This document shows, in pieces, positions 2,379 to 20,178 of a DNA stretch of 20,249 nucleotides (position 1 is its first letter; each line of letters begins with the position of its first letter). Source of the stretch: a virus; IMG/VR virus record IMGVR_UViG_3300030107_000117, positions 1 through 20,249 of that record. One strand, given 5' to 3'. The notes beneath the pieces were generated by a model. The model was not told where the DNA came from. It was given only the letters and a program-made list of their open reading frames with translations, and did not search any database. The translations under genes were made by a program, and so were the position numbers.

Positions 2379-5300
2379 TTATTGATTATATATAGCAGAT
2401 AAGCTATCTAAAAGGTCTTGATATTCTTTTTGTGGCTTTAGTGGGCCAATATTTCTAGAGCCAACATCTCTTCTCATTTGTTTTAAATACTCTTCTTTGT
2501 CCTCTGGAGTTTCAAAATCGCCTTTTAATTCTTTTACTTTCATTATTTGAGCAGGAACTGACAAATCTCCAGAAAACATAATTTCTCTATAAGTAGTAAC
2601 ATACTTTTCTTTTACAGAGTTTATTATTTGTCTTTTAACAGCATCTGACATATTAGACCACTCATCTACTTTTATTGCATTATCAATAAAATTATATAAA
2701 TTTTGTCCAGATATTTTTATTAAGGCTTGATGTTCGCCCGGAGTAAGTTTTATTGTTGCTAAATCAGAAGATGTAAAAAAAGCGCTAGCAGACTTAAATC
2801 CTCTTTTATTATCAAAGTATATTTTTTGTATTTCAGCATAAACTGGGTCATTTAGTCTTTGAGTTTGTCTCCATGCTAGTAAACCACCAACGGGGTCAGG
2901 TTTAGGTATTTCGTTGCCAAAAGGGTCTAGAGCTGGCATATTGCTACCTTCTACAAACCAAGGTAAAACATTTTCAGCTTGACTTTCTAATACATCAATT
3001 ATATCAATATTTTCATTTCTTTCAACTAATTTTAATCTTCTTCTTCGTACCGGGTCTACAACACTAAGCCATTGTCTATATGAACCCGGAACTAAAGCGC
3101 CAGCCATTTGATTAAAGCCATAATCAAGAAAGTCTCTTCTGCCATTAAGAACTTTAAATAAATCTCCAGTTCCTGCTAAGAATGGATTTTCTAAAAATTG
3201 TTTTGCAACTTCTTTTGTTACATTATAAACCACTTCTCCAGCTCTTTCAATACTAGATTGATTTTCATATGCTTTTTTATCGCTTCTTTGCAAAGCTTCA
3301 ATCATTGTAATATATGTCGAAACCGGTTCAAACCCTCTATAACTTACAGTTGAGCCATCTGGAAACTCTATTGAGTATTCTTGTTGACCCATTACAGTTC
3401 TCATATTTCTTTCTTCTGGTGAAAGATTTGACCAATCTCCAGAAATAGTTCCTTTCATATTTTCAACAAGAAACTCATTTAACAAATATAAAGTACCTAA
3501 ACCAGTTACTATTTTGCTTGACTCAGTAGCAAGTTTGCGACTACCAGCGCCTTCTCTTGAAAAAGCCTCAACAAAACCTTGTATAAAATTTTTAGAAACA
3601 ACATTTAAAGGAGTATGTTCAACTGTATATTTAAATAAATTACCAGCAGTATTAAAAAAGGGAACCATAATCTGAGTCAAAGCGTTCATTCTTGTGTTGC
3701 CAGTTCTAAGTTTATTTACAAACTTACCAACCTCACCAAGCTCTCTTTGAAATGTAACATACTCACCATCTTTAATTGCCTGTTCAAGTAGTTCAGGAGA
3801 TAGTTCTTGCATCTCCATAATTTCATTTGCTCTTTGAAGTATTTCCGTTTGTGTTTTTCTACCTTCTTTTATTGCTTGACGTACAGCATACCTATGCATA
3901 TAAGCGTTTGTCATAGGAACACGATACATAATATCAATCATTCCTTGCAGTCTCTGAGGTGTTCTTATGACTTTGCCTTTAAGTCCTTTTATATCTTTAT
4001 TTGTAAATCCTTCTCTTCTAAAAAATGGACTTTCTCTCAATGCAACATCGTTTTCTAAAAACATATCATAAAGAAGATTGCCGGTTTTTCTAAATCCTTT
4101 TGTATATCCAGTTACCTGAGCGCCTAATTCTAGTGCTGTAATTTGATTTGGGCTAAGATTGCCCCAATATCCATTAGTAAGTTCATATAAAGCACCGCTT
4201 GTTTTTCTAATAGCATAATCAAGGCCATACTCAAAAGGCATTCTAGCATAAGCGTCAACAGTAGCAAATGCGTTACCAGCTACACTACGAACTAAAGAAG
4301 AACCTGTTGCTAGTTTTGCATTTCTAGCCCACTCTGCTAGCTTAAACAACCTGCTTCTTTTTACTTCTTTGTTTTCATAAACCTTTCTCATTAATTCTAC
4401 AAGAGTGCCGTCATTATTAAAAAATTTTTCATACTGTTTCCAGTCTCTTATTCCCTCTGCTTTTAAATCTCTTAAAAATCTAGTTGCTCTTGCAGGTTCA
4501 GATATATATGCATTTGTCATTAGCAATGATTCAATCAAGGATTGTCTTATCGCAGGATTTTTTGTTTTAGCATACTCTACTAATAAAGAATAAGTTAAAT
4601 TTGCAGAGGCTGCCATTTTTTCCGGTAAAGCATCTACTGAAAGCTTGCCAGTTTCTAGCTCATTTATTACTGAAGCCATTACATCTTGTTCTTTAGAGCC
4701 TCTTTTTATAACATCTACACCTCTAGTTCCTTTTGCTTTTGATGATAACTCTCCTCCAACATTTTCTGCTGTGACTTCTAGTAAGTCAACCATAGAAACC
4801 CTTACATCATTAGTTTTGTCACCGCTAATTGTTTCTACTCTTATATTATTTATGTATTCCTCTTTGCCTCTTCTAGCAGTTCTAGTTGGAACAACCTCAC
4901 CGGGGCTAAGAGGTGTTTCTTTTGCTATCTCGTTAGCGGCTATCTTAGCTGATTGAATTGTTGCTGTATCATATAATTCTTTAAAATTTTCGTTTACGTG
5001 TTTAATAATTACCTTATCTGCACCTAACTCTTTTAAATAATTAATTAAGTTATTTTTTGTCATCTTCAAACCTGTTTCGCCACGTTCCCATATAGTCATT
5101 ATTTCATTAACAAGTTTTTGATTTTCAATTCTTTGTTTAGCTTTTTCTTTTGTTGACTTACCCACATTCCTACCAACTGCACCTTTTGCAGTTCTTTTTA
5201 AGATATTTTTAGAAACACTTTTTAGTAACTCTTTTGTAGGCGTTATTTGTCTTAATTGATTTTGAGATTTATTTATTAGCTTGTTTGTAGCATCTATAGA

Positions 5301-13995: not shown

Positions 13996-14648
13996 TATTT
14001 ACCAGAACTCATATACGGAGCTAATGCATTTCCATACTCTGCTAACAGTTCTTGATACTGACTTCTATGTAAAATTACAACTTCACTATCTTCATCTTCA
14101 TTAAAAAAAGTTATTTGTCTTTGCTTTAGTCTTGCGCTAGCACCCAGGATTAAGGCGTGTTCTAGCTCATCTGGAAACTTAGAAACAGAGCTAGCACCAT
14201 GTAGTATTGTAGGATTTTCCATTACATAATATCTACTTGGATTTGCGCTTGTCGGCTCAGGATATACATAAACATCATTATCGTTAAAAGTCCACCTTGG
14301 AGACTCATCTGTTGCAAAAAATATACTATGAGGATTTTGAATTTTACCTTGCAATGATGCATCTACATAAACACAAGAAACATATAAATCAGTAGTATCA
14401 TCAGATTCTCTTCTTTCAACCAATACTATTCTACTGTTTTCAATGTTGCTAGCAATTGGATTTGAGGTAACATTCAAAGACTTAGTTGAATATTGTATTA
14501 AAATATCTGGTCGAACTTTATTTAAAATATCGCTAGCAGTATCCTGCAAAGCATCTTGAATTGCCTGTTGATTAGCTGAGGCATCATCACTGCCAACACT
14601 TGCAGTAGCTCCTATTATATCTTCTATTCTTGTTTGAAAATCAGCCAT
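13995..14648 (-). CDS. Connector/tail-tube-like structural protein (217 aa)
   Basis: The N-terminal helix (DFQTRIEDIIGATASVGSDD, then a Gln/Asp-rich helix ALQDTASDILNKV) is followed by a beta domain (about 50-150), including RWTFNDNDVYVYPEPTSAN. A C-terminal helical pair follows, PDELEHALILGASARLKQRQ and VVILHRSQYQELLAEYGNAL. Helix, beta core and a terminal helix with 'P..L..A...GA...L' are typical of podovirus head-tail adaptors and tail tubular A-like proteins. It lies between another connector-like gene and the nozzle-like gene, overlapping both by one base. A CAGGAGC site is 12 bases upstream of the start. The role as second adaptor or tube ring is inferred. Confidence 0.6.
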   Translation of the reverse strand: MADFQTRIEDIIGATASVGSDDASANQQAIQDALQDTASDILNKVRPDILIQYSTKSLNVTSNPIASNIENSRIVLVERRESDDTTDLYVSCVYVDASLQGKIQNPHSIFFATDESPRWTFNDNDVYVYPEPTSANPSRYYVMENPTILHGASSVSKFPDELEHALILGASARLKQRQITFFNEDEDSEVVILHRSQYQELLAEYGNALAPYMSSGK

Positions 14649-15565
14649 TAATCATCTGCTCCTGTTGTGTTCTCAATAGAACCATTTCTTGTGGTTACAA
14701 ATACCTGCATTGGATTTGGAATCAAATGAGGCATAGGTTCTTTTGCGCGTGATGTTTCTATGTAATCTTGTTCTATCTTTCTTGCCAATCCCATATGCCC
14801 GCTACCAACTTGAAGATTTCCTCCAAGATTTAAAAAATGACCCAAAGTGCAATGTATTGCCGCTGGAATTAGTTGTTGAGGGAGGTCAACCCTACTTGAT
14901 AAACTATTTTTTTCTTCTGGACTAGCATAATAATAAACTCTAAGATTTCCACCTGAGGTAGGATTTTTAGTTAAAAACAGTTTGTGAGTATCTTTTTGCC
15001 ATACGCCACCACTTGAATATGCTGTTGTTTCACTTGAAGAATCAATTTGTACAGTAAAGTTTGTGCTTGCATTATATGTTATAGGAAGTCTTTTGCCATT
15101 TAAGTGGGATTCTTTTGTTGCAGTAACAAAATGACCTTTTATCTCACTAAAAATTACATAATCGCCTGTAGATAGGCCATGAGATGCAGATGTAATAAAT
15201 GTAGGATTTTGTGAAGAAACATTTGTAATAACACCATTTGAAACATCTGTTTTAATATAATAACCAATTTTAGATATATCATCATCATCTACATTAGATA
15301 TAATTGCTGATTCATCTACAAAAGGAACATCTGCTTGGTCTAGTTCTACTTTATATATTTGCCCAGAGTAATTTGCTTTTGTAAAAATATACTCTTTACC
15401 GCTAGCAGTAAATGTTTGTGAGTCTTTTTTACGAACTGCCCTCATTGCGATTTCTTTTATTGCTTGGTCAAAGTATATCTCAATTAAATTATGAGACACA
15501 GGCAGTTCTATTCCACCAGCTATAACCCCAGCATCAATAAGTTCGTATGCTTCTTGGTATCGCAT
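14648..15565 (-). CDS. Head-tail connector-like protein with inserted beta domain (305 aa)
   Basis: Helical ends surround a beta insert. Residues 1-50 (YQEAYELIDAGVIAGGIELP, then NLIEIYFDQAIKEIAMRAV) and 228-270 (LPQQLIPAAIHCTLGHFLNL, then the helix MGLARKIEQDYIETSRA) resemble adaptor helices. Residues ~108-190 contain TFITSASHGLSTGDYVIF, LNGKRLPITY and TAYSSGGVW. These follow the 'T.A.HGLstGD.V.i...G...LNG..y.it.......F.l......t.YtsGG' pattern of a small beta domain that recurs in phage and other proteins (E1 FCCH-like in family databases, from memory). The start overlaps the last 32 bases of the small basic gene, with a purine-rich AGAGAAAG as weak binding site. The function as connector is inferred from position and architecture. 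Confidence 0.65.
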   Translation of the reverse strand: MRYQEAYELIDAGVIAGGIELPVSHNLIEIYFDQAIKEIAMRAVRKKDSQTFTASGKEYIFTKANYSGQIYKVELDQADVPFVDESAIISNVDDDDISKIGYYIKTDVSNGVITNVSSQNPTFITSASHGLSTGDYVIFSEIKGHFVTATKESHLNGKRLPITYNASTNFTVQIDSSSETTAYSSGGVWQKDTHKLFLTKNPTSGGNLRVYYYASPEEKNSLSSRVDLPQQLIPAAIHCTLGHFLNLGGNLQVGSGHMGLARKIEQDYIETSRAKEPMPHLIPNPMQVFVTTRNGSIENTTGADD

Positions 15566-15686
15566 TTTTCTTTCTCTTTTTACGTTTTTTACGAATACGA
15601 GATTTTTTAGTTCCTAACGTGGTCATCAACCTTGATGAACCATCGCTAAATCTTGTTGCCCCAGTTCCGTATGTTATTTCTTTCAT
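15534..15686 (-). CDS. Small basic protein with major-capsid-like N-terminal peptide (50 aa)
   Basis: The ATG start at 15684-15686 is preferred, because it follows GGAAAC and lies downstream of a strong hairpin. A longer 62-residue reading would use a TTG at 15720-15722 inside that hairpin. Residues 1-26 contain YGTGATRFSDGSSR and LGTK, which align with YGSGTALQFSDGSQR and LGDK at the same distance from the start of the major capsid protein. Residues 27-50 are extremely basic (SRIRKKRKKRKK). I infer a minor capsid component that uses the shared peptide to join the capsid shell, leaving a positive tail to contact packaged DNA or to steer assembly. The last 32 bases overlap the next gene. The family is unknown and expression is not proven, but the aligned motif in frame argues strongly that it is real. 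Confidence 0.7.
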   Translation of the reverse strand: MKEITYGTGATRFSDGSSRLMTTLGTKKSRIRKKRKKRKKNAIPRSIRTY

Positions 15687-15697
15687 ATTGTTTCCAA

Positions 15698-15723
15698 TTT
15701 GAGGGCGGTTACCCGCCCTCAAA
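15698..15723 (-). promoter_or_regulatory. Strong GNRA-loop hairpin between capsid and small basic genes
   Basis: On the minus strand TTTGAGGGCGG, loop GTAA, then CCGCCCTCAAA form a perfect 11-bp stem capped by a GNRA-type tetraloop. It begins 20 bases after the capsid stop and ends 11 bases before the ATG of the small basic gene. No T-run follows on either strand, so it is unlikely to be a classical terminator. It fits an mRNA 3'-end stabiliser, an RNase processing site or a regulator of downstream translation. Confidence 0.75.
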
Positions 15724-15743
15724 CGATTATTGGATTATGAACC

Positions 15744-17204
15744 TTAAGTTAGCTTTAGGATAGCGTGTGTTTGTTCATTACGAACTTCCATGCCAACTTC
15801 CATTAGCCACTCATCAGTTTGACCATCACGACCATCCTGAACGATGTCTTTACGAAGTTGCATATCGCGACCAGCCAAAGGACGAACTGAAAAGTTCGCA
15901 GGGTCAACCGCAATTGCATAATCTTCATATGCACCTTTCAAATATGGATGAGGAACAAAGTCAAGTTCACCAACAGGGCCAAGATAAGAACGAACTCTTA
16001 ATCCACCTTTGGTTTCTTCACCAGTATCATAGAATCCAGTATCTGCACCTCTTGTCATAGATGCTAACTTAACCATCCATTTATTTGATGCAAAAACTGT
16101 TTTTCTCATGCTACCTGCTACCATATCTGAAAATATAAACTCAACAACTGAATCCATAGCATCCAAATCACCACTAGAGTAACTTAATTGCAAGTTTGAA
16201 TTGTCAAATCCATTCAAGGATGAAATAGAACCATTAGAAGTTCCAAGACCTATTCCTTGAAATGTTCTTTTTGGATTTTCAGAACTAGCATCAAGAGAAA
16301 TAGCACCATTAGTAAGCATTGCCCACTCAATATTGCCTTTAATCTTAGCTAATTTTCTAGCTTGTAATCTTGAAAGCTCAGGCCCACCATACTGTTCTGA
16401 TACTTTTGCAGTATTTGTAATGGTATATGGTTCGCGAAAAATTTGCGTACAGTTTTTCAACCTACGTACTTTTTTACGAGTTTCAACTCCAACAGCAGAA
16501 CCTTCAGCAATTCCAGATATTCCATTTTCTCTAATAAAATAGTCAGCATCAGCAAAATTAGCTTCGCCAAAACCATTACTTCCACTATTTACTTGATAGC
16601 CATAGAAAGATGTTGCGCTTCCATTATCATAAAATAGACCAGCATTTGCAACAAAACTCAATGTTAAAACGCCAGAAGCATCTGCTGTAATAAGGTCTGA
16701 ACCATCAGCACAGGCTTCTACATTGTAAGCATCAAGACTTGCATGGACGTGCGCTCCAAGAAACTGAACCATCTTATCTGTTGCGCTAGCATGATTAACA
16801 TCTTTACCAACAGCAATACAAATAAAATGAGTAACATCAGTTTGAAGAGCTGCTGAGCCACCTGCAATGCTAGCAGAATAAATACCACCAACTTCAAACA
16901 TTTCCATTTGAGCTTGTCTTTCTAGAATTAGAATTGTGTGATGACCATTTATACCACCTGATGCTGTATCAGCAACATCTGAAGAAGTTACGTTGAACTT
17001 CTCGCTTTTTTTAATCATGTACTCGTCTTCCATCCACTCAAATATAGGGACTGGAGTCACAACTGACTGTTGTCCAAAAAGTGAGAAAATGGGAGTAACA
17101 TTTGGATTGTAGTAATGGATTTTATCACCAAGTTCTAAGACTTGTCTTTGCGACCCGTCTGAAAACTGCAAGGCGGTTCCACTACCATAACTAGTTGTAG
17201 ACAT
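15744..17204 (-). CDS. Major capsid protein, SU10/DUF5309-like (HK97 fold)
   Basis: The central segment CTQIFREPYTITNTAKVSEQYG with PELSRLQARKLAKIKGNIEW (about 252-294) matches the conserved core of the SU10-type major capsid family: a beta strand, a threonine-rich turn and the long spine helix. Downstream, DAMDSVVEFIF, KTVFASNKWMVKLAS and LRVRSYLGPVGELDFVPHP look like the axial and peripheral domains. At 486 residues it is larger than the usual ~330-400; the extra length sits at about 105-240 and is probably an inserted surface domain. The N-terminal peptide (YGSGTALQFSDGSQR) reappears in the next gene. There is no obvious fused scaffold. A very strong GGAGGT binding site precedes the ATG, fitting high expression. 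Directly upstream is the scaffold gene, and hairpins lie on both sides. Confidence 0.85.
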   Translation of the reverse strand: MSTTSYGSGTALQFSDGSQRQVLELGDKIHYYNPNVTPIFSLFGQQSVVTPVPIFEWMEDEYMIKKSEKFNVTSSDVADTASGGINGHHTILILERQAQMEMFEVGGIYSASIAGGSAALQTDVTHFICIAVGKDVNHASATDKMVQFLGAHVHASLDAYNVEACADGSDLITADASGVLTLSFVANAGLFYDNGSATSFYGYQVNSGSNGFGEANFADADYFIRENGISGIAEGSAVGVETRKKVRRLKNCTQIFREPYTITNTAKVSEQYGGPELSRLQARKLAKIKGNIEWAMLTNGAISLDASSENPKRTFQGIGLGTSNGSISSLNGFDNSNLQLSYSSGDLDAMDSVVEFIFSDMVAGSMRKTVFASNKWMVKLASMTRGADTGFYDTGEETKGGLRVRSYLGPVGELDFVPHPYLKGAYEDYAIAVDPANFSVRPLAGRDMQLRKDIVQDGRDGQTDEWLMEVGMEVRNEQTHAILKLT

Positions 17205-17231
17205 TTCTACCTCCGTTTATGTTACAGCAAT

Positions 17232-17256
17232 GCTACAATCCTATATAGGTTATAGC
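17232..17256 (-). promoter_or_regulatory. Hairpin between scaffold and capsid genes
   Basis: On the minus strand GCTATAACC and GG(A)TTGTAGC pair around a short TATATA apex, with one T-G wobble and one bulged A. It starts one base after the scaffold stop codon and ends 19 bases before the GGAGGT of the capsid gene. There is no T-run after it. With the hairpin at 15698-15723 it brackets the capsid reading frame, which suggests mRNA processing or protection. Confidence 0.5.
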
Positions 17257-17257
17257 A

Positions 17258-18148
17258 CTACGTATTTGTATTATTAAATTCCATAATCCCTTTCCAAAAA
17301 TCATCAACTGCTTTTTCTTCAGGTTCAATAGCTTGAGGAGCATTGCCACTTACAGAGGCCGCGCTATTCTGCTTGTTTTTTACCTTTGGAGCCTGTTGAG
17401 CTACTTCTGGTTTAGAATTATTCCCTTTGTTTGCCAATGTTTTCCAAATCTCAACTAAGTTCTCCTGAGATACATTATTTGGGTCAGCCATAAATTGCCT
17501 ATATTCAACAATATCTGTATCACTTAACCCCATTTTCTGTAGCTCTATAGTTTCTGCGTCAAATGCCTGAGACTGACTAAGTTCAGACTTTAACTTTTCA
17601 ACTTCTAGCATGGCTTGAGTAGCGCCCTGACTTATAAGCCATTTGTCATGCTCTGCTCTCCATTTTGCGGAGCTAGAGTTTTCAATGCCTTCATCGAGAA
17701 TATCATAATCATCTGGCTTAACAGGCGGTGCATTCATATCCTTTTGTTTTTCTTGAACTGATTCTGTCAGCTTTTGAACTACATCTGGATTATTCGAAAG
17801 AAATTCATCTAACTGCGCTAGCTTTTCATACTTACCCTTCTCATTAGCCCATTCATTTCTATCTTTATCGGACTTCGATTGAAGTTGTTTATATGCGTCA
17901 GCGAGTTTTTGAACTCCTTCCTCATCATTTGCGAATTTATTCTCAATTAACCATTGCTCAACTTTTGATTGCTCATTTGGTTCTTCATTGTCATTATTCT
18001 CATCAGGTTGAGTTTCTAGAACTTCTTCTTCCTGAGATTCTTCAACCTCTGGTTCCGATGAAGAGCCTGAGTTGAACTCATCAAGTTCAGCTAAAAGGTT
18101 ATCTTCGTTCATTACTTCTTCCTGATTGTTTTGGTCTTCATTTGTCAT
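17258..18148 (-). CDS. Capsid scaffolding protein (296 aa)
   Basis: The protein is strongly acidic at the N-terminus (residues 1-60, with runs such as EEVEESQ-like Glu/Asp/Gln/Asn sequence). Then come charged helices (SKVEQWLIENKF, VQKLADAYKQLQSKSDKDR, MLEVEKLKSELSQSQ), a basic linker at 245-262 (KPEVAQQAPKVKNKQ) and a final short helix EEKAVDDFWKGIMEF. An acidic, coiled-coil protein with a basic C-terminal helical tip just upstream of the capsid gene is the usual picture of a podovirus scaffold, whose C-terminal tip binds the capsid shell. There is no protease motif and no sign of fusion to the capsid. An AAGGAG site precedes the ATG. The gap from the portal stop is 23 bases. Sequence homology cannot be shown by eye, so the call rests on composition and order. 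Confidence 0.8.
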   Translation of the reverse strand: MTNEDQNNQEEVMNEDNLLAELDEFNSGSSSEPEVEESQEEEVLETQPDENNDNEEPNEQSKVEQWLIENKFANDEEGVQKLADAYKQLQSKSDKDRNEWANEKGKYEKLAQLDEFLSNNPDVVQKLTESVQEKQKDMNAPPVKPDDYDILDEGIENSSSAKWRAEHDKWLISQGATQAMLEVEKLKSELSQSQAFDAETIELQKMGLSDTDIVEYRQFMADPNNVSQENLVEIWKTLANKGNNSKPEVAQQAPKVKNKQNSAASVSGNAPQAIEPEEKAVDDFWKGIMEFNNTNT

Positions 18149-18171: not shown

Positions 18172-20178
18172 CTATGCTTGCGGAGCTTTTGGTTCTGAGT
18201 TAATCGTTTGTTTTGCAATAGATAGTTCTTCACCGACCATGCGAGTCCTATCTCTTTGTCGCGCTTCTTCCAGCTTAGCATTTGATTTGATTTTGCTTAC
18301 TGCTTCACTTACAGGTTTAGTAGCTTCGCTAATCTCAGCTCTCATGTTAGCATGAAATACTTCACGCTCTCTAGTTTGCAAGTCACCTTGCATTCTCTTG
18401 AGTTCTTGTTGCGCTTGTTGCAATTGCGCTTGTAAGTTTCCTATCTCTCCCATTCTCTGCATAAGCGATGCTTTATCAATATCGCCTTTCATATTCATAA
18501 TAACTTGAGTTTTATCATAAATACCAGCACTTAGAAGAGTTAAATCTTTTTGAAGTTCAGCCATTGGCGACTTACTTCTAGTAGAACCGACTACAACCCT
18601 AACATCAAATCTAGCCGTTTCCATATCATATAATTTTTTAACTGCACCTGTTTTGTCATCTATAACAGGAATATTTAATCTTACTTCATTCTCATCACCT
18701 GTAGGGCTTACAATTCTTAATGTTCTTTGCTGGTCATAAACATTAGGCATCCATTGAGTTATGACCTTTGCAGTTCTTGTAAGCATATCATATATAGGCA
18801 ATATTTTCCAATTTTGTTTTCTTGATGATGATTCATCCATTATTTGCGCTTCACCAACAGTACCGGGTGCGCCTTGAGCGTTTCCTTGAAGAAACTTATA
18901 AGCGCCAAAAACTGTTTCTATATCAACCTCGTATCTGCCTTTTTCTGCATATAAACTCGATGATACTGCTGGTGGAGCAAATTCTTTTATTTTACCAGAT
19001 GCTAATGCTCCGGGGTTTGCTCTTATTATAGCATTTGGTATGTGCCATTTCTGTATTTCGCTAGCATCTATAGCTCCATCTTCATACAATAGCTTAAAGT
19101 TAGTAGTAGCATTTGTATGAGATATAATTAAAGCTTCAGTTCTATTTAACATTCTCTGAGGAGTCTTTGCATGACGAACATCTCCACTTGGATATGGTGT
19201 TCCAGCGTGTTCATTACAAGCAACAGCTATAGGATATTCAGAAATAGGTAGTATTTCATCATACAGAACAGTGTCTCCAACTACAAACACTTCTCTTACC
19301 CTCGTTTTGTAAACAAGTTGTTCTGTAATAATTCCTTGTTTTATAAATTCTTCGTACTGCTCATCCTTTACAAGTTCTTTATACTCATCTCTTGTATATG
19401 ATTGAGTTCTTCCAGTATTTGTATCTAAAATAAGAGCATGAGGTATATTTACTTTTACAAAGTAACAGTATTTTCTTACTCTACTTTGATGGTCTAATAC
19501 ACCATTACCTTTTGTTTCAATAAAATCTCTTGAATATTTACCAGAACTTTGTTCGTTTCTGTAATGGTCTTCCTTAGCATTTTCTATTTCTTTTGCATAT
19601 TGAGGAAATAAAATCTTTAAGTGTTCTTTTGTATGTAGGTCAGAGTATATAATTGCGCTAGCATCTGAAAAATCTGGTAAAGAACTATTTGGGTCAACAA
19701 ATATAGATTCAGGTGGCATTCTTTTTACTTTGATTGTTCCAAGTCCACCATCTCCTTGATAATCAGGGTATATGTACATATAAGCTATACCCTTTACAAT
19801 AAAATCTTTACAAGATTGCCTAAAGTGTACATCCGCATCAGATTCGTACCATATTTTATCAAGTAGTTGGTCAAAGACGAACGCCGCATCATTATCTGTT
19901 TTGCCCACAGCGTGAACATCCCATTCAGGAGCAGATGCGGCGATATTCGCTAAAACCTGCTCGACGGCGGGACGTATTTTGTTGTTAGCTTCGGGGGGCT
20001 GACCCACACTGAGCAAGTAATTCTTTTGAGACCTTGTAAGCTGAGAGCCTAAATAAAACTCATGGTCTTCCGCCATTTGATAACGATATTCGCTAGAAGA
20101 GCTTTCGAACAATAAATAGTCCGACCTTACCTCTTCCGCCGAAATTTCTTTTGTTTCTAGCTTACGTAAGTCTAACAT
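18172..20178 (-). CDS. Portal protein, P22-like (668 aa)
   Basis: The first 130 residues carry the portal signature: a helix with FYLGSQLTRSQKNYL, then NNKIRPAVEQVLANIAASAPEWDV, DNDAAFVFDQLLDKIWY and CKDFIVKGIAYMYIYPD. This corresponds to the 'N.I.p.V....g....n.p...v.p...D...A..........' pattern of P22-type portals. FVDPNSSLPDFSDASAII and the helix-rich segment around 335-455 (ATTNFKLLYEDGA, ETVFGAYKFLQGNAQG) form the stem and crown core. Residues ~578-650 are a long helix rich in Gln, Glu and Arg (QLQQAQQELKRMQGDLQTRER), resembling the C-terminal barrel of long portals. Length is typical. It forms the dodecameric DNA channel at one vertex and would dock the terminase, expected upstream outside the window. 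The ATG has no evident Shine-Dalgarno sequence. Confidence 0.85.
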   Translation of the reverse strand: MLDLRKLETKEISAEEVRSDYLLFESSSSEYRYQMAEDHEFYLGSQLTRSQKNYLLSVGQPPEANNKIRPAVEQVLANIAASAPEWDVHAVGKTDNDAAFVFDQLLDKIWYESDADVHFRQSCKDFIVKGIAYMYIYPDYQGDGGLGTIKVKRMPPESIFVDPNSSLPDFSDASAIIYSDLHTKEHLKILFPQYAKEIENAKEDHYRNEQSSGKYSRDFIETKGNGVLDHQSRVRKYCYFVKVNIPHALILDTNTGRTQSYTRDEYKELVKDEQYEEFIKQGIITEQLVYKTRVREVFVVGDTVLYDEILPISEYPIAVACNEHAGTPYPSGDVRHAKTPQRMLNRTEALIISHTNATTNFKLLYEDGAIDASEIQKWHIPNAIIRANPGALASGKIKEFAPPAVSSSLYAEKGRYEVDIETVFGAYKFLQGNAQGAPGTVGEAQIMDESSSRKQNWKILPIYDMLTRTAKVITQWMPNVYDQQRTLRIVSPTGDENEVRLNIPVIDDKTGAVKKLYDMETARFDVRVVVGSTRSKSPMAELQKDLTLLSAGIYDKTQVIMNMKGDIDKASLMQRMGEIGNLQAQLQQAQQELKRMQGDLQTREREVFHANMRAEISEATKPVSEAVSKIKSNAKLEEARQRDRTRMVGEELSIAKQTINSEPKAPQA

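Follow-up and report, generated by a model that had tools for sequence, protein, structure and literature searches.

What does a perfect RNA hairpin do directly behind the capsid gene of a marine virus of bacteria, when the U-tract of a terminator is missing from it? A virion is built from much more capsid than tail protein, and the two seem to share one long late transcript in the stretch of viral DNA analysed here (20,249 nt, hereafter the window). An RNA element that follows the capsid gene, fixed in position and free in sequence, would be a simple answer to the problem of the capsid-to-tail ratio, and such an element is recognizable in metagenomic phages without culture. We therefore examined the hairpin in the window, its conservation in related phages and its counterparts in other capsid families.

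A stable hairpin in the 3′ UTR of the capsid gene

The hairpin sits in the 3′ UTR of the major capsid protein (MCP) gene, in the 57 nt that separate the MCP stop (15744) from the next ATG (15686), and starts 20 nt past the stop (Table 1). Read as mRNA from 15723 to 15698, it is TTTGAGGGCGG-GTAA-CCGCCCTCAAA, with a stem of 12 bp if a terminal G-U pair at 15724/15697 is counted, and with a loop that is of GNRA type on the minus strand, which carries the genes, and TTAC on the plus strand. The mRNA strand following the 11-bp stem reads TTGGAAACA, has a single T in 8 nt and is without a U-tract. Position, stem, loop and gap are as the first-pass annotation described them, and its claim that this is the most stable local structure is upheld: the plus-strand fold of 15680–15740 has a z-score of -4.7 against dinucleotide shuffles, none of 200 being equally stable, and no other Watson–Crick stem of at least 11 bp (loop 3–8) occurs in the window. 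Any such stem appeared in 6 of 100 first-order Markov simulations, and a stem of at least 9 bp with at least six G-C pairs in 1 of 100. The fold energy is -22.5 kcal/mol on the minus (mRNA) strand vs -19.6 kcal/mol on the plus strand, and that of the stem is -21.9 kcal/mol. A simple terminator scan of the window did not include the post-MCP hairpin among its matches, and an Rfam search of the window gave no match at E 1. A repeat of the REP/BIME kind, which has many genomic copies, was rejected because the 20-kb window holds one strong hairpin locus.

Table 1. Features of the window around the post-capsid hairpin
Feature	Position	Strand	Remarks
Capsid-cistron 3′ hairpin	15698..15723	-	11-bp perfect stem, GUAA loop, without U-tract
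Second G-U-rich RNA hairpin	17223..17264	-	Just upstream of the MCP ribosome-binding site
Major capsid protein gene, 486 aa, SU10_MCP family	15744..17204	-	Pfam PF17236 E 6e-38; PHROG 1328 (major head protein) E 1e-29
Next gene, 50-aa peptide, 34% Lys+Arg	15534..15686	-	N-terminus resembles MCP N-terminus
Following structural gene	14648..15565	-	phrog_584 tail, E 1.3e-4
Putative scaffold gene upstream of MCP	17258..18148	-	By position and composition
P22-like portal gene	18172..20178	-	Pfam PF16510 E 2.5e-67

The capsid identity given earlier to the upstream gene is borne out by its Pfam and PHROG matches, and the capsid gene is assumed to be the most expressed; the putative scaffold gene has no family match in Pfam or PHROG. 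Beyond the hairpin, the start codon of the small basic peptide gene lies 10 nt past the 12-bp stem, and the genes that follow overlap or are at most 11 nt apart down to position 2379, where a 122-nt gap occurs. This packing leaves no room for intergenic promoters, so read-through of the hairpin is likely, and the tail-side genes are probably transcribed through it unless a promoter lies inside a gene. A strong terminator at this site is unlikely, with the same proviso of promoters inside genes, because the downstream genes probably need read-through.

The 50-aa peptide matches the MCP N-terminus of the window at 13 of 26 positions (BLASTP E 6e-5 for the pair). Peptides of this kind in relatives, here termed YGTG-type, have 36–50 aa, 26–39% Lys+Arg and an MCP-like N-terminus such as TTYGTGATxFSDGSSR; from these sequences, they may dock like a capsid arm and bind DNA.

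Conservation of the hairpin in related phages

Relatives were fetched from IMG/VR with the MCP. Among the best 80 of 137 matches, 72 loci extend past the MCP stop and the other 8, which end inside the MCP gene, were dropped; MCP identity to the window ranges from 93% to 58% for the full-length loci among these 80. Further searches gave 43 new locus ids, of which 16 were used (15 after removal of L138, which has no stop), the remainder being contigs fetched again or fragments ending inside the gene. Some added loci were picked with another member (L077) and may be further from the window. The full set comprises 88 loci with 62 distinct downstream sequences, the window included; as these sequences are related, the counts below are not of independent events.

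A stem follows the MCP stop in all 73 sequences formed by the window and the 72 relatives, with 8–17 bp (G-U allowed) and 41 distinct hairpins. It begins 4–32 nt past the stop in every case, so that the position of a capsid-cistron 3′ stem-loop, within about 35 nt of the MCP stop and before the next gene, is occupied in 73/73. Every one of the 62 distinct downstream sequences has a stem of -11.4 kcal/mol or better, and 60 reach -14 kcal/mol. Within 60 nt of the stop, a stem of -14 kcal/mol or better was found at 57 of 62 MCP ends vs none of 217 ends of other ORFs (at least 100 aa) in the same loci.

The gene behind the hairpin is readable in 59 of the 62 sequences and not readable in three. 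It encodes a YGTG-type basic peptide in 30 of the 59, all with the hairpin; in the other 29 it is mostly another small basic (Lys/Arg-rich) gene, and again the hairpin is always present. A large other gene follows the hairpin in four loci (L013, L028, L035 and L153), and a gene resembling the tail gene of the window (P0003) in three (L145, L155 and L157). The hairpin is thus kept whatever the next gene, which indicates that it belongs to the capsid cistron. The finding that could have overturned the first-pass annotation, relatives with the same gene order and no stem, did not turn up among the 62 distinct post-MCP sequences of this SU10_MCP-type capsid family. We conclude that the post-MCP hairpin is a real, conserved RNA element. 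Our literature search brought up no paper that we recognized as treating the post-MCP hairpin of this clade, and the available portions of PMC3483164, PMC6316719, PMC3517404 and PMC12282133 contain nothing bearing on a capsid hairpin.

Two side observations concern the same loci. The motif AATCG adjoins the stem (15724–15728, minus strand); it is invariant and mostly unpaired in 18 aligned near relatives, and it occurs in the first 40 nt past the MCP stop in 30 of 62 distinct sequences vs 1.6% of background windows. A lower stem (CCTAA/TTAGG) with AATCG as a bulge, spotted by eye, was not recovered by RNAalifold and is not claimed. The 52.8-kb contig of one relative (G008, the contig of locus L009) carries two MCP genes of different families, at 10–1449 and 48788–49681, and is possibly a chimeric assembly.

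Covariation and strand preference of the stem

The first-pass annotation had proposed looking for compensatory changes in the stem in related phages, and these are present. In the alignment of 18 near relatives, 96.8% of cells are paired and 12 are double-change cells, vs a shuffled mean of 2.5; none of 500 shuffles was as high, and sliding the partners left 0–1. RNAalifold gave the same 12 pairs, four of them with double changes. When 36 distinct inner stems were anchored at the loop, changes on both sides numbered 18, 19, 18, 10, 2, 2, 8 and 9 at pairs 1–8, with one unpaired cell in these pairs and five at pair 9. This table is partly circular since the stems were picked for pairing, and it carries less weight than the alignment and the tests in which strands were treated independently.

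These tests favour the sense strand. For hairpins chosen on the sense strand, folding is favoured on that strand by more than 0.5 kcal/mol in 54 of 62 sequences and on the antisense strand in 3. With the best hairpin of each strand chosen independently, sense is the more stable in 50/62 and antisense in 3, and extension from a strand-neutral Watson–Crick seed gives a longer stem on sense in 37, on antisense in 7 and an equal one in 18, with 31 bracketed G-U wobble pairs vs 3 A-C. Loops on the sense strand are GNRA in 22 sequences and UNCG in 3 (25/62 together), and none of the antisense loops is of these types. The presence of G-U pairs and of GNRA or UUCG loops on the mRNA strand indicates that RNA is the conserved molecule. 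Although the sequences are related, the direction and size of the asymmetry point clearly to the mRNA strand as the functional molecule, and conservation of structure in this strand is also what marks a hairpin of the puf type.

A second hairpin upstream of the capsid gene

The second, G-U-rich hairpin of Table 1 overlaps the stop codon of the gene before the MCP gene. Reading by eye, we found a 5′ hairpin in 22 of 56 distinct upstream sequences, the window included, and none in the other 34; each of the 22 folds better on the sense strand. An alignment of 17 of the 22 contains 12 double-change cells vs a shuffled mean of 4.4 (0/500 shuffles as high), while the count of double-change pairs was equalled or exceeded in 93 of 500 shuffles and that of pair types in 191. 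Covariation of the 5′ hairpin is weaker than that of the 3′ hairpin. A promoter inside the 5′ hairpin, suggested by TGnTATAAT in several relatives, is not claimed, as the window has TATAAC and others have TATAGT.

Absence of a U-tract within the clade

Of the two components of an intrinsic (Rho-independent) terminator, the G+C-rich stem-loop is present and the U-tract directly after the stem is absent. Across the 62 distinct sequences, the 8 nt after the stem contain on average 2.08 T (26%, vs a background of 27%) and 4.0 A; six sequences have at least five scattered T, and none has a run of four T, although L117 gains one such run if the last 4 nt of its stem are counted. Hairpins with T-runs occur elsewhere in relatives, at 16512 in G010 and at 31204 and 40938 in the perhaps chimeric G008. 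Between tandem genes of relatives we also observed a few hairpins that have a G-rich 5′ arm and are not followed by a T-run, at G003 36535–36561, G009 29456–29484 and G015 4843–4868.

A T7-type RNA polymerase (PF00940) was not found in any of 17 long relatives, some perhaps incomplete, the window itself being a 20-kb fragment; the built-in control of this search was silent, and T7, used as a separate positive control, was found by the same search. The hairpin shares with the T7 terminator Tphi its position right after the MCP gene; a phage polymerase of the T7 type was not detected in these relatives.

Hairpins after the capsid genes of other phages

The second capsid gene of contig G008 led us to a second marine capsid family (phrog_267), for which 5 of 80 loci were left out as truncated and 1 of the remaining 75 was too short. 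A hairpin of -11 kcal/mol or better follows the stop in 46/46 distinct loci, at -14 or better in 44, vs 0/143 other ORF ends at -14. The sense strand is better in 44 of the 46 and the antisense strand in 2, and the 8 nt after the stem hold a mean of 3.3 T, with at least five T in 4 loci. As a side observation, the capsid gene of this family carries a frame-breaking insertion of about 241 nt in L172 (about 2321–2561), L173, L174, L179, L181 and L182, and a similar one at another site in L244 (from about 1585), after which the capsid gene resumes. With their R/S-like motifs, these insertions look like small group I introns, but Rfam gave no match at E 1 for those of L172 and L244.

A panel of 17 phages, hand-picked and not sampled, included 7 of 12 MCP-matching records. 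A post-MCP stem of -10 kcal/mol or better is present in 14 of the 17: T7, lambda, HK97, P22, P-SSP7, HTVC011P and eight distant relatives (seven by MCP, one by portal). None was found in HMO-2011, HTVC010P or phiEco32; in phiEco32, as in SU10, a terminator-like hairpin stands one gene later. Nine of the 14 hairpins have at least five T in the following 8 nt, those of T7, P-SSP7, lambda, P22, the Vibrio phages VS-ABTNL-3 and SJSY21, Roseobacter phage CRP-810, Aeromonas phage BUCT695 and Escherichia phage ECO319P1. In ECO319P1, BUCT695 and SJSY21 a second large gene follows the matching capsid gene, labelled major capsid protein in the first two and hypothetical protein in SJSY21; it is followed by a U-tailed hairpin in BUCT695, and nothing similar is apparent behind it in ECO319P1 or SJSY21. 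The statement of the first-pass annotation that the hairpin is not a typical terminator thus holds within the clade, where T is at background, but does not extend to the distant relatives and classic phages, in which five or more T in 8 nt are frequent.

Possible functions of the hairpin

We propose that the hairpin is a leaky 3′ boundary of the capsid cistron that acts mainly by mRNA protection, a reading to which the sequence comparisons lead us to give about even chances. The hairpin would form in the 3′ UTR of the MCP gene within a late polycistronic mRNA, presumably a single transcript, and transcription would pass it into the tail genes. The capsid segment would end in, or be trimmed back to, a hairpin that 3′–5′ exonucleases find hard to pass; the capsid message could then outlive the downstream part, principally through protection of its 3′ end, and synthesis of capsid protein would exceed that of the small basic protein and of the tail proteins. 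Selection for 3′-end protection would be expected to yield such a stem: stable, U-less and frequently closed by a GNRA or UUCG loop. The first-pass annotation had likewise suggested that the capsid message may be protected, or processed, at this site; both are inferences from sequence. According to the available part of PMC11696848, strong terminator hairpins with U-tracts go with higher abundance of the upstream transcript. Against protection, the U-richness of the nine panel hairpins and the T content of the phrog_267 family would fit termination.

Weak termination is the main rival to mRNA protection. The hairpin would be a leaky intrinsic terminator without a U-tract, the counterpart of Tphi, at which the host RNA polymerase partly stops so that fewer tail transcripts are made. 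Tphi itself and the putative terminator of HK97 occupy this place, as do the U-tailed hairpins of P-SSP7 and of the Vibrio and Roseobacter relatives; the stem energy in the window is ample, and the available text on LUZ100 reports ‘an apparent strong terminator sequence’ right after the MCP gene (PMC10134795). Within the clade, however, the tails are without T-runs, relatives have real T-run hairpins at other sites, and no T7-type polymerase was detected in the 17 long relatives; we regard this explanation as possible but rather doubtful. Some bacteria may terminate at U-poor hairpins.

The remaining explanations appear less probable still. A translational insulator or attenuator, in which the stem before the next start codon limits or separates downstream translation, might be suspected because the first ATG lies 6–30 nt past the stem and at 6–7 nt would be near enough to hinder ribosome binding; as the hairpin stays while the next gene differs and the distance to the next ATG varies, such a role is unlikely. 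The long perfect duplex could also be a processing site for an endonuclease of the RNase III type, parting capsid mRNA from downstream mRNA, but many stems have just 8–12 bp. Stems of that length are short for RNase III, and processing is in our view very unlikely as the main function, even though cleavage sites for RNases shape the mRNAs of T7, as the available text of PMC5592923 states. That downstream genes differ among relatives at the hairpin point might reflect a DNA-level signal, such as a recombination or module boundary or a packaging site; however, a DNA palindrome would not be expected to show the strand asymmetry seen in G-U pairs and GNRA loops, and this asymmetry makes such a signal highly improbable.

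We put forward more tentatively than mRNA protection in this clade the idea that unrelated capsid families independently keep a hairpin that is free in sequence and fixed in place and strand, and that in AT-rich marine lineages, where it is U-less, it acts by mRNA protection alone. If true, it would be a general stoichiometry device for virion assembly and not a terminator.

Comparison with known systems

A hairpin behind the capsid gene is already known in public records for T7, P22, HK97 and lambda. Tphi likewise stands directly after the major capsid gene and before the tail genes, and T7 genes 11 and 12 are expressed solely via Tphi read-through, according to the available text of PMC5592923; Tphi includes a U-run and its target is a phage RNA polymerase, whereas in the clade of the window we saw no U-run and found no T7-type polymerase. 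A predicted terminator downstream of the capsid gene is given for JG068 in the available part of PMC3765740. The P22 record annotates a stem_loop as ‘similar in location to stem-loops in phage HK97 and phage lambda’, and the HK97 record lists its post-capsid hairpin as a putative terminator. These three phages have the stem-loop at the same position after capsid genes of other protein families. In lambda and P22 the stem is shorter (7 and 6 bp, respectively) and the tail U-richer than in the window, whereas the HK97 hairpin, with stem GAGGGGGCGGG/CCCGCCCTTTT, a GAAA loop and 2 T in the following 8 nt, resembles that of the window, although its own 3′ arm ends in TTTT.

Outside phages, the puf operon of Rhodobacter similarly places a stable intercistronic hairpin between genes that differ in expression, reportedly described by Klug in 1987 as stabilizing mRNA; that hairpin is bacterial, and the one in the window is known here from its sequence. 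Within the phages compared, the hairpin of the window falls into a known class of post-capsid hairpins, as a form without a U-tract.
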